A stretch of DNA of 64,000 nt from Candidatus Sulfotelmatobacter sp. (GTDB lineage: Bacteria > Vulcanimicrobiota > Vulcanimicrobiia > Vulcanimicrobiales > Vulcanimicrobiaceae). Numbering within the stretch: position 1 is the stretch's first letter; each line of letters starts with the position of its first letter. The DNA lies in assembly GCA_035504415.1 (NCBI GenBank), contig DATJRY010000010.1:124001-188000 (forward strand). The letters run 5' to 3'. The position numbers and the translations under genes were made by a program. This document shows, in pieces, positions 5,759-38,012 of this stretch. The notes beneath the pieces were generated by a model. The model did not search any database and was not told the DNA's origin. It saw only the letters and a list, made by a program, of their open reading frames with translations.

Positions 5759-5788
5759 CCCCTCTGCGCTGTCTGAGGTCTAAAGATA

Positions 5789-5915
5789 GCAACATGGTGA
5801 TGGACCGAGCGCAGCAGAATAGTGCCCCGATGAAACGCTGTTGCGAGGTCGGACCCGGGGGCCCCACGCTACGCGTGGGGGGCGCGCAGCCCAGGGCGGA
5901 GCGCCGCTAAAATGT
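5789..5915 (+). repeat. glm-associated structured element, copy 1 of tandem pair
   Basis: 127-nt unit directly followed by a second copy. The core 5794-5905 contains: GACC (5803) pairing with GGTC (5847), a helix of 8 pairs CGCAGCAG (5810) with CTGTTGCG (5838) including one G-U, a hairpin CCCCACGC-TAC-GCGTGGGG (5862-5880) and a closing helix GGCGC/GCGCC (5881-5905). The unit boundary carries ATGTGC, the same start codon and second codon as glmS, as if a glmS leader had been duplicated. Another copy lies inverted at 37242-37355. No transposase or terminal repeats seen. It matches no RNA family I recognise. Confidence 0.75.
5794..5910 (+). CDS. possible small ORF in leader copy 1 (38 codons)
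   Basis: ATG GTG ATG GAC opens a 38-codon frame (starting MVMDRAQQNSAPMK) that runs the whole length of element copy 1 and stops (TAA 5908-5910) one base before the ATG at 5912. A weak GAGG lies 15 nt upstream. The frame is shared with copy 2, but the third copy at 37242 has TAG at codon 8 and a length change, so coding is not conserved across all copies. Could be a leader peptide or chance openness in GC-rich DNA. Confidence 0.25.
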   Translation: MVMDRAQQNSAPMKRCCEVGPGGPTLRVGGAQPRAERR

Positions 5916-6037
5916 GCAACATGGTGATGGACCGAGCGCAGCAGAACAGCGCCCTGATGAAACGTCGTTGCGAGGTCGGACCCGGGGGCCCCACGCTACG
6001 CGTGGGGGGCGCGCAGCCTAGGGCGGAGCGCCTTTAA
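5912..6037 (+). CDS. possible small ORF in leader copy 2 (41 codons), abutting glmS
   Basis: ATG TGC AAC ATG GTG ATG opens a 41-codon frame across element copy 2; TAA at 6035-6037 lies two bases before the glmS ATG at 6040. Product begins MCNMVMDRAQQNSALMK and ends GGAQPRAERL. The spacing would allow translational coupling to glmS. No strong ribosome site precedes it apart from GGCGGAG inside copy 1 (5895-5901), which lies 10 nt upstream at a usable distance. Unproven; sequence resembles copy 1 because of the duplication. Confidence 0.3.
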   Translation: MCNMVMDRAQQNSALMKRRCEVGPGGPTLRVGGAQPRAERL

Positions 6038-6039
6038 AC

Positions 6040-6042
<3 letters not shown>
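5916..6042 (+). repeat. glm-associated structured element, copy 2, ending at glmS start
   Basis: Second tandem unit, nearly identical to copy 1 outside the central variable stretch (5943-5969). The same hairpin CCCCACGC-TAC-GCGTGGGG lies at 5989-6007, followed by the GGCGC/GCGCC helix (6008-6032). The glmS Shine-Dalgarno GGCGGAG (6022-6028) sits inside this last helix and its 3' end overlaps the pairing arm, 11 nt before the ATG, so folding could limit ribosome access. This is the position where Firmicutes carry the glmS ribozyme, but I cannot align that ribozyme core here. Confidence 0.75.
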
Positions 6043-7878
<1,836 letters not shown>

Positions 7879-34944: not shown

Positions 34945-35592
34945 CTACTCGACGATCCGTTTCGCCCCGAGGTAGCGCGCCGCCCAATAGCGGTCGTGCA
35001 GGCTCGAGACGGTCACGCCGTGGCTGGACGAGGCGTGGATGAACCGGTCGCCGCCCAGCGAGATGCCGACGTGCGACGCGCCGGCGGCGTAGGTCTGGAA
35101 GAACACCAGGTCGCCCGCTTTGGGCGTTCCGTGGATGCGGTGGGCGACGTCGAACTGCGCGTCGGCCGTCCGCGGCAAGTGCCTGCCGATCATGGCGAAC
35201 ACGTGCTGGACGTAGCCCGAGCAGTCGAACCCGTTCGCCGTCGTGCCGCCGAAGACATACGGCACGCCCAGAAACCGCATCGCGTTGCGGGTCAGCGCCG
35301 ACGCCATCGCGGCGCCGCGGGCGGCGATGCCGCTGGCGAACTTCTGAATGTGCAGCAGACGCGAAACCTTGGGCGTCGACTCGCTCGACAGTTCCGTCTT
35401 GGGTTCCGCATTCCACATCGCGAGGTCGGCGCCGTCGGTGGGCGCCGCGACGTCGGCCGAAGCCGAGCTGGCGGCGGCCGCGCTCATCGCGGCCGTAGAC
35501 CCGGGATCACCCGTCTGCGCTGCGCTGGCCAGAGCCGGAATACCGGCCGCGAGCATGCACGCAAAAAACCCGGTCAGGATGGAACGTAGCAA
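34945..35592 (-). CDS. NlpC/P60 family cell-wall endopeptidase
   Basis: 215 residues if started at TTG 35592, which has AAGAAGGAG six bases upstream; a GTG at 35613 is in frame but overlaps the 3' end of the riboswitch. Signal peptide ending near ALASAAQ. After a low-complexity linker the catalytic domain begins about residue 100: YVFGGTTANGFDCSGYVQHVF (nucleophile Cys), DAQFDVAH, HVGISLGGDRFIHAS (catalytic His). These enzymes cut peptidoglycan stem peptides. A c-di-AMP riboswitch directly precedes it; the membrane protein at 34533 follows on the same strand. Confidence 0.93.
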   Translation of the reverse strand: MLRSILTGFFACMLAAGIPALASAAQTGDPGSTAAMSAAAASSASADVAAPTDGADLAMWNAEPKTELSSESTPKVSRLLHIQKFASGIAARGAAMASALTRNAMRFLGVPYVFGGTTANGFDCSGYVQHVFAMIGRHLPRTADAQFDVAHRIHGTPKAGDLVFFQTYAAGASHVGISLGGDRFIHASSSHGVTVSSLHDRYWAARYLGAKRIVE

Positions 35593-35613
35593 CAGCTGCT
35601 CCTTCTTCCACAC

Positions 35614-35877: not shown

Positions 35878-37224
35878 CTACCCGGCGATGCCGCGAATCG
35901 TTCGGGCGACCGCCTCCGCCACGGCGTGCGTGCGCGCTTCATCGCGGCTCTCGACCATCACCCGCACCAGCGGCTCGGTCCCGGAGGGCCGTACCAGGAT
36001 GCGCCCCTGCCCCGCCAGCTCGCGCTCCGCGGCGCTCACGGCGGCCCGAACCGCGGGGTGCTCCCACACGCCGCGGTCCTCGACCCGGACGTTGACGAGC
36101 ACCTGCGGATAGACGTCGAGCCCCGCCGCCAGCTCGTGCAGCGGCGTGCGGGTACGCGCCGCAACGGCCAGCAGCGCCGCTGCGGTCATCGGGCCGTCAC
36201 CGGTCGTTCCCCGCGTCAGGTCGATCACGTGGCCCGACTGCTCGCCGCCGAACCGGTACCCGCCCGCGCGCAGCGCCTCGAGCACGTACCGGTCGCCGAC
36301 GGCGGCGCGGACCAGCTTCACCCCGGCCGCGCGCAGCGCGACCTCGAAGCCCATGTTCGCCATCACGGTGCCGACGACGGTGTCGCCGGGCAGCTCGCCG
36401 CGCGCGTGCAGATCGCGCGCCAAGATCAGCATCGCGTGATCGCCGCTGAGCAGCTCGCCGGACTCGTCGACGAACAGCGCGCGATCGGCGTCGCCGTCGA
36501 ACGCGACGCCGACGACCGGTCCGGTGCTGCGCGCGATCTCCTCGCGCACGCGCGCTTGCAGCGCCCGCAGGTTGGTCGCGCCGCAATCGACGTTGATGCG
36601 GCTGCCGTCGTCTTCGGCGTGCAGCGCGATCACGCGCGCGCCCATGCGTTCGAAGATCGCCGGGCCCACTAGATACGCCGCGCCGAACGCCGCGTCGACG
36701 ACGACCGTCATTCCGTGCAAGTCGGCGCCGGCCGCCACCACCTTGGCGAACCAGCTGTCGATCAGCCCGCGGTTCGCGCCGACCGTCCCGACGCCCACGC
36801 CGGTCGGACGCGGCAGCGAGGGATCGTCGAGCAGCGACTCGATCTCCGCTTCTTCCGCGTCCGAGAGCTTGAAACCGTCGGCACCGAACAGCTTGATCCC
36901 GTTGTCCGCGATCGGGTTGTGCGAAGCCGAGATCATGACGCCGGCCGCCGCTTCGATCGCGGCGGTGATCGACGCCACCGCCGGCGTCGGCACGACGCCG
37001 AGCTGCACGACGTTGCGCCCGGTCGAGGTGATCCCCGCGACGATCGCGCCCTCGAGCATCGGGCCCGACAAGCGCGTATCGCGCCCGACGACGATTGGCT
37101 TGTCCAGCGCCTGCGCGTGCGCGATCACCGCCGCCCCCGCCCGACCGACCTTGAACGCCAGCTCCGGCGTCAAATCCGCGTTCGCAACCCCGCGCACGCC
37201 GTCGGTGCCAAAAAGCCGTTTCAT
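35878..37224 (-). CDS. glmM: phosphoglucosamine mutase
   Basis: 448 residues, ATG at 37224 (MKRLFGTDGVRGVAN). Isomerises glucosamine-6-P to glucosamine-1-P, the step after GlmS. Phospho-serine loop VMISASHNPIADNGIK (Ser in SASHNP), metal loop GVAFDGDADRALFVD, sugar loop GGEQSGHV and phosphate-binding RPSGTEPLVRVMVE. No clear Shine-Dalgarno precedes the ATG; the upstream 18 nt abut the inverted element copy (37242-37355). Genes cdaA-cdaR-glmM in this order are a conserved operon in Firmicutes, where GlmM can inhibit CdaA. Confidence 0.96.
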   Translation of the reverse strand: MKRLFGTDGVRGVANADLTPELAFKVGRAGAAVIAHAQALDKPIVVGRDTRLSGPMLEGAIVAGITSTGRNVVQLGVVPTPAVASITAAIEAAAGVMISASHNPIADNGIKLFGADGFKLSDAEEAEIESLLDDPSLPRPTGVGVGTVGANRGLIDSWFAKVVAAGADLHGMTVVVDAAFGAAYLVGPAIFERMGARVIALHAEDDGSRINVDCGATNLRALQARVREEIARSTGPVVGVAFDGDADRALFVDESGELLSGDHAMLILARDLHARGELPGDTVVGTVMANMGFEVALRAAGVKLVRAAVGDRYVLEALRAGGYRFGGEQSGHVIDLTRGTTGDGPMTAAALLAVAARTRTPLHELAAGLDVYPQVLVNVRVEDRGVWEHPAVRAAVSAAERELAGQGRILVRPSGTEPLVRVMVESRDEARTHAVAEAVARTIRGIAG

Positions 37225-37241: not shown

Positions 37242-37355
37242 ATGGTGATGGACCGAGCGCAGTAGCATCGTGCCTTATCCGTGTCGTTGTTGCGAGGTCG
37301 GGCGGGGGGCCCCATCGCTGTGCGATGGGGGGCGCGCAGCCCGGGGCGGAGCGCC
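37242..37355 (+). repeat. glm-associated structured element, copy 3 (inverted relative to cdaR and glmM)
   Basis: Same blocks as at 5794: a 21-base block beginning ATGGTGATGGACC is identical, TTGCGAGGTCGG is identical, and the hairpin is CCCCATCGC-TGT-GCGATGGGG (37310-37330), one pair longer than the 8-bp CCCCACGC stem upstream of glmS, with the extra base added on both arms. The central part differs and its ORF is broken by TAG at codon 8. The helix CGCAGTAG/TTGTTGCG survives only with G-U pairs in this orientation. It fills the cdaR-glmM gap and supplies the cdaR 3' end. Confidence 0.75.
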
Positions 37356-38012
37356 TTGAGACGACACGAACTTCACTTGTACGCGAACTAGGTTCGGGGA
37401 GACTTGGATGCCGGGGATCTCGTGGCCGTCGGCGTCGGTCGGGGTGGGGCTGATCATCTCGTCGAGGTCCTGCGGCTTGCGCGGGATCGGCACCTCGACG
37501 CGCACGGCCGCGACGTGGTCGAGCGCGGTCGCGACGCCGCGCACGACGGTCGCGGCCGGCGTCACCGCGGCCGAGTCGACGACGATCCCCGCGCGCTGGC
37601 CGGCGTAGTCGAGGCTGACCGGCATCGCGCGCTGCTCGAGCCGGTCGAGCGAGACGATCACCGAGGCCGGCGAGAGCGAACGGATCGCGACGTCCGGTGA
37701 GACGACGTGGACCGGAACGTTGTGGAAGCCCGGATCGAGCAGATCGCTGACGTCGACGACGGCCTGGAACTGATCGGTCCGGAACGACTCGCCGTTGCGC
37801 GGCACGTCGATCACGACGGTCGCGGTCTTCTCGTTGCTGGTCGCCTGGTAGCCCGCGCGCACCCCGGTCACCACGATCGGCACCGCCAGCGTCTGGTCGA
37901 AACGGGCGAAGGTGCCGGGCGCCGCGGCGAGATGGAAATACGCCCAAGCAGCGACGGCCAGCGTGAGCGAGAGGAGCTTAAGTCCGAAGTTGTTCCTGAG
38001 GCGACTGAGCAC
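37275..38012 (-). CDS. cdaR: CdaR (YbbR-domain) regulator of CdaA
   Basis: 245 residues, GTG at 38012, overlapping the end of cdaA by 35 nt. One N-terminal membrane helix (LKLLSLTLAVAAWAYFHLA), then extracytoplasmic YbbR-type repeats with VPIVVTGVRAGYQAT, VSPDVAIRSLSPASVIVSLD and MPVSLDY. Known CdaR proteins bind CdaA at the membrane and modulate c-di-AMP synthesis. The final ~27 residues (from about GAPPRAARPPS) are encoded by the inverted repeat element and look unlike the rest, so the native end was probably just after VRVQVKFV. Confidence 0.9.
   Translation of the reverse strand: MLSRLRNNFGLKLLSLTLAVAAWAYFHLAAAPGTFARFDQTLAVPIVVTGVRAGYQATSNEKTATVVIDVPRNGESFRTDQFQAVVDVSDLLDPGFHNVPVHVVSPDVAIRSLSPASVIVSLDRLEQRAMPVSLDYAGQRAGIVVDSAAVTPAATVVRGVATALDHVAAVRVEVPIPRKPQDLDEMISPTPTDADGHEIPGIQVSPNLVRVQVKFVSSQGAPPRAARPPSHSDGAPRPTSQQRHG

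Follow-up and report, generated by a model that had tools for sequence, protein, structure and literature searches.

The leader of glmS in the window, a 64,000-nt stretch on contig C10 of a 4.17-Mb genome (G000, 96% complete), consists of two tandem copies of a folded RNA element that carries its own Shine-Dalgarno (SD) sequence. The element represents a new family of dispersed, SD-carrying RNA leaders in one family of Ca. Eremiobacterota, and it probably controls translation of the cistron that follows it.

The two copies were 91% identical and followed one another with a period of 127 nt (positions 5780–5906 and 5907–6033), between an rpoZ-like gene upstream and glmS. When the limits were set by conservation across the family, each copy measured 118 nt (copy 1, 5794–5911; copy 2, 5921–6038; both type A, plus strand), and the 3′ end of copy 2 stood directly before the ATG of glmS (6040–7878, plus strand), whose product has SIS and glutamine amidotransferase domains. 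Copy 1 comprised a 5′ helix, a GC hairpin, an SD-bearing 3′ hairpin, and GCTAAA, followed by ATGTGC. In copy 2, the 5′ helix P1 (5930–5977) was formed by GACC (5930–5933) and GGTC (5974–5977) with flanking GA/GA, and the GC hairpin H (5989–6007) had the sequence CCCCACGC-tac-GCGTGGGG, with its counterpart in copy 1 lying 127 nt upstream. The terminal hairpin (6008–6032; GGCGC-GCA-GCC-TAG-GGC-GGA-GCGCC, −13.8 kcal/mol) enclosed the glmS SD, GGAG, at 6025–6028. The preliminary description, which had reported two head-to-tail copies of about 127 nt ending at the glmS start, a GC hairpin with the arms CCCCACGC/GCGTGGGG, and a closing GGCGC/GCGCC helix containing the SD, was thus confirmed in its anatomy. 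The tandem would most simply represent a later local duplication, because the glmS start recurs as ATGTGC at the end of copy 1. Before glmS of a genome from another family of the same order (G026), another GC-rich repeat (GGGGTCCCCGCGAACGAAGCGCAGCGAAGTGAGTGGGG...) was observed in approximately three tandem copies (L154, 1–220); the rpoZ–glmS junction therefore collects repeats elsewhere too.

A third copy was located at 37242–37361 on the plus strand, and its hairpin had one added pair (CCCCATCGC/GCGATGGGG), as described previously. It was antisense to both neighbors, namely a glmM-like ORF (MKRLFGTDGVRG...; 35878–37224, minus strand), which reads away from it, and an ORF named ybbR-like from sequence inspection (37275–38012, minus strand), the 3′ end of which runs into it. 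A role of this copy as a glmM leader was ruled out by this orientation. Part of the C-terminus of the ybbR-like ORF seemed to be encoded by the antisense copy (37275–37360). A c-di-AMP riboswitch (ydaO/yuaA leader, RF00379; 35596–35738, minus strand) was also present in this region, just upstream of an ORF with an NlpC/P60-like motif (34945–35613, minus strand) and close to the cdaA-like, ybbR-like, and glmM gene run, in which the gene names were given by inspection.

The element was found at 37 places in the window's genome by BLAST and at 36 by a covariance model of its 3′ module. Scanning 84,980 species, each represented by one genome, with the 3′-module pattern yielded 77 stretches, all of which were in Ca. 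Eremiobacterota. Within the phylum, the covariance model matched 63 of 149 genomes, 62 of them in the family of the window's genome, with 1 to about 36 copies per matched genome; one congener (83% complete) gave no match. Weak matches in other genera of the family were partly a different tandem GC-hairpin repeat and were excluded from the evidence. No match to the element was obtained in the plasmids, phages, and viral contigs searched, no relevant match in Rfam at the gathering threshold or at an E value of 10, and no description of such an element from Eremiobacterota in the open-access literature searched.

From 5′ to 3′, the element was composed of the variable but always paired P1, the GC hairpin H, the terminal hairpin, (G/T)TTAAA, and the start codon. 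Two subtypes were distinguished by the 5′ arm, which was GACCGAGCGC in type A (the glmS type) and a sequence such as GCGCGC followed by CCNNGGGGAAU in type B. The 3′ module was common to both, its conservation being inflated by the collection of many copies with the 3′-module pattern or a GGAG-containing BLAST query. A related but distinct module, consisting of a GGGGGCCCC hairpin and then GGCGC..GCGCC and TTTAA, was observed in the genera g29, g46, and g47 (L239, L241, L242, L243, L260, and others); it was followed by another GGGG(C/T)CCC start, was situated mostly away from start codons, and in one genome (G061) gave two matches 96 nt apart. In G038 (family f3), the terminal hairpin of an element before a kinase gene (L253, about 1501–1577) seemed to contain an interruption, CTTCGATACCTCAGGACAAGCTC, which may be a case of nested repeats. 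G002, G004, and G008 also had strings like CTTCGACAAGCTCAGGAT in their ribosomal protein spacers.

The case for the fold is comparative, not energetic, and was built on aligned copies. Among 64 distinct type B copies, the covariation score was 0.273, compared with 0.078 for shuffled and at most 0.066 for slid controls, 148 cells had changed on both sides (expectation, 46.7), and covariation was present at every one of the eight 5′-helix pairs, in an alignment that was fitted to the structure and hence leans towards it. In the type A alignment, which was made by sequence alone, the score was 0.094 versus 0.042, and GACC/GGTC of P1 was swapped for GAGC/GCTC in 16 of 49 copies. The G-U claim of the preliminary description was put to the test on 118 copies, in which the GC hairpin contained 35 G·U and no A·C pairs on the gene-sense strand, as expected for an RNA read in that sense, although the search locating these pairs scored G·U above A·C and may favor it slightly. 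Covariation thus exceeded the controls in both types. The folding energy of single copies was no better than that of shuffled sequences (z = 0.18 and −0.39), because the sequence is very GC-rich. The terminal hairpin varied little, partly since copies were collected by that sequence, but showed compensated variants: GGTGC/GCACC at rpmJ, GGC/GCC in G018, and GTC/GAC at rpsE. The conservation of CCNNGGGGAAU and of a GGGGG segment was not accounted for by pairing.

The fold was likewise retained at orthologous sites. In five orthologous copy pairs (rpsH, L040/L049, rimI, the nucleotidyltransferase, and L066/L259), 110 of 118 base pairs were unchanged, six were compensated, two were changed on one side, and none was broken, whereas the P1 loop differed at 57 of 155 positions (37%); cross-genus rpmJ comparisons, in which some pairs were broken at least partly through one-column alignment shifts, were omitted from this count. 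The nearest paralogues within the genome had a median identity of 77%; therefore, the copies are old, with no recent burst. This pattern indicates that compensatory changes have maintained the fold at its sites and that the copies are retained by selection, as judged from sequence comparison. The covariation, the G·U bias, and the compensated orthologous pairs together upheld the earlier proposal of an RNA folded in the glmS sense, with the SD within the closing helix.

Approximately 70% of the copies were positioned directly before a start codon, consistently in the same sense as the gene, and the remaining 30% or so were elsewhere, some antisense or between convergent genes. For 110 copies with enough flank, a coding start was located within 15 nt of the last helix in 74 and at exactly 6 nt in 50, compared with about 6% for shifted anchors. 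The element filled the intergenic gap, with the upstream stop codon often within a few nucleotides of its 5′ end; this boundary was sharp, conservation stopping there and the flanks having no similarity. Among 30 copies examined in the window's genome, six were antisense to both neighbors, three lay between convergent genes, and none was between clearly divergent genes. The GGAG, situated in the terminal hairpin's 3′ strand some 10 nt ahead of the start codon, was intact in 51 of 51 start-adjacent copies but in 23 of 27 others (Fisher p = 0.012), or in 53 of 53 against 21 of 25 (p = 0.009) after rpmJ and nadD, missed by the automatic caller, were reclassified. This contrast depends on four copies, one of which precedes an mreB-like gene with another GGAG downstream of the element, and is a modest one, pointing the way that use of the SD would predict. 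Leader peptide or uORF coupling was not supported; element length was not kept modulo 3, and the type B frames were about equally open.

The genes downstream of the element were atpC, an ABC transporter ATPase gene, argG, smpB, ispG, pyrC, moaA, a sugar-phosphate nucleotidyltransferase gene, sufU, rimI, dnaJ, purA, the transaldolase gene, mreB, hslU, valS, rpsH, prfC, sucD, a PASTA kinase gene, adk, rpsE, rpmJ, and glmS. They had no common theme and formed no coherent metabolic set of the kind that marks a riboswitch.

Filled and empty orthologous sites were found among the relatives, and these, like its many intergenic copies, are features that the element shares with small interspersed repeats. 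At glmS, two copies were present in the window's genome, one each in G001 and G003, a remnant lacking the 3′ hairpins in G004, and none in the six other congeners with a readable glmS start. In eight congeners, secY and adk overlapped (through ATGA or GTGA) or came close to doing so; in the window's genome, the element split this junction, the TAA of secY falling just inside its 5′ end and the adk start right after its 3′ end. The rpsE site was filled in the window's genome and G005, and the rpsH site in G001 and G007. At rpmJ, copies were present in the window's genome, G003, G009, and two other genera (G015 and G018); the copy in G015 no longer has the GC hairpin. Three congeners and G015 have an rpmJ copy with a locus-specific P1 (GGCC) and stem (GGTGC/GCACC), which would fit long vertical retention with losses elsewhere.

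Signatures of the insertion process were sought at the copies. No register stood out as a target-site duplication, and no terminal inverted repeats were seen in the alignments by inspection, the 5′ end being ATGGTGATGGACC and the 3′ end GGAGCGCCKTTAAA. The Y1 (TnpA-REP) transposase, PF01797, was absent from the window's genome, in which the positive controls were found, and an IS200/IS605 or RAYT origin was rejected on this ground. A reverse-transcriptase route was also rejected, as RVT_1 was absent from that genome and matches elsewhere were weak or scattered. At L013, L038, and L128/L143, the last 15–17 nt of the element (GGAGCGCCKTTAAA) were repeated once after it, a pattern resembling insertion of a new copy into an older remnant or slippage of the end.

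We hold with moderate confidence that the glmS feature is a tandem of a leader family that sets the translation of the cistron downstream. The element would be co-transcribed with its operon and would replace the native SD or the start–stop overlap. Initiation downstream would hinge on access to the GGAG held in a stable hairpin (about −13.8 kcal/mol), and the element would thereby uncouple and set, and perhaps regulate, downstream translation independently of the upstream gene. Copies would have spread through some insertion process, and sense copies at start codons would survive because only there could they supply a working SD. We put forward only tentatively the further idea of a self-spreading initiation module, that is, a mobile RNA with its own SD that inserts between stop and start codons, splits overlapping or closely packed genes, and brings dozens of housekeeping cistrons under shared control at the RNA level, exerted on the SD in its hairpin.

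The element might instead be a purely parasitic, MITE-like repeat, with a fold that serves its own mobility and a start-codon position that reflects tolerated insertions. The many intergenic copies in both orientations, including antisense sites and sites between convergent genes, their patchy presence with filled and empty sites, and neighbors without a common function all agree with this account. We nevertheless consider it rather unlikely: no terminal inverted repeat, target duplication, or Y1 transposase was seen, the copies are old (median identity 77%) and yet orthologous ones keep their pairing by compensatory change, and the stem variant GGTGC/GCACC is shared by the rpmJ copies of two genera. 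Processing or stabilization of mRNA between cistrons, by an RNase III or RNase E site or an exonuclease barrier with the SD incidental, has precedents in the effects of ERIC and Correia on transcript stability and cleavage (PMC3049150, PMC2229807), and strong GC hairpins between cistrons would suit it. It leaves unexplained both the constant spacing of 6 nt to the start codon and the retention of the SD at start-adjacent copies, and it seems quite improbable to us.

A regulon-wide translational operator or riboswitch, in which one ligand or RNA-binding protein gates all of the SDs, would account for an SD held in a hairpin that is conserved together with its internal loop and for the CCNNGGGGAAU and GGGGG segments that pairing does not explain. 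CsrA, which binds GGA, is a candidate: 22 of 25 relatives encode it, the window's genome among them. However, it is found just as well in G002, where the element gave no match, and many type A copies have GCA in place of the internal loop's first GGA. With a gene set that is incoherent and turns over between congeners, we judge such an operator unlikely. The preliminary description had proposed a regulator tied to glm genes, at the place where Firmicutes use the glmS ribozyme, and elements do precede glmS twice in the window's genome and also in G001 and G003. This proposal did not hold and is now highly improbable: about 36 copies stand at unrelated genes, no element precedes glmS in six congeners, the copy next to glmM has an antisense orientation, and no glmS ribozyme was found in the Rfam search. 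Copies with no link to glm genes, the outcome that the description had said would refute it, were thus observed.

The favored reading, a leader family that sets downstream translation, concerns a strongly covarying RNA family not previously described, from a phylum that has received little study. The element unites two things that are usually separate, being both an insertion element in dispersed copies and a leader RNA selected at individual genes. If it is true, bacteria can gain ready-made translation-initiation regions by insertion, even within a ribosomal protein operon. The filled and empty sites would provide a natural series for measuring the effect of intercistronic RNA structure on operon stoichiometry.

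Among known repeats, ERIC, BOX/RUP/SPRITE, and Correia are likewise of similar size, present in tens of copies, intergenic, folded when transcribed, and variable between relatives (PMC3049150, PMC10969869, PMC2229807); BOX, RUP, and SPRITE occur in excess between convergent genes (PMC3049150). Unlike these repeats, the element provides the SD and has its 3′ end at a constant 6 nt ahead of start codons; no terminal inverted repeat was seen and no target duplication found, and compensatory change has preserved its stems at orthologous sites. In its start-codon position it resembles the TAACTGA repeats of marine Beggiatoaceae, which are numerous and intergenic and stand directly before the starts of unrelated genes, including ribosomal protein genes; a translational role has been proposed for them, and canonical ribosome-binding sites were reported to be rare beside them (PMC4679880). 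These are heptamer direct repeats with no covarying fold, whereas the element is a fold carrying the SD. The glmS ribozyme of Firmicutes (RF00234) is also a folded RNA just upstream of glmS, but the element has no Rfam match even at an E value of 10 and is not confined to glmS. Finally, the element shares with translational riboswitches and ribosomal-protein leaders a structured 5′ region overlapping the SD, and differs from them in that it serves no coherent regulon, its sites turn over at a far higher rate, and the SD comes from the element itself.
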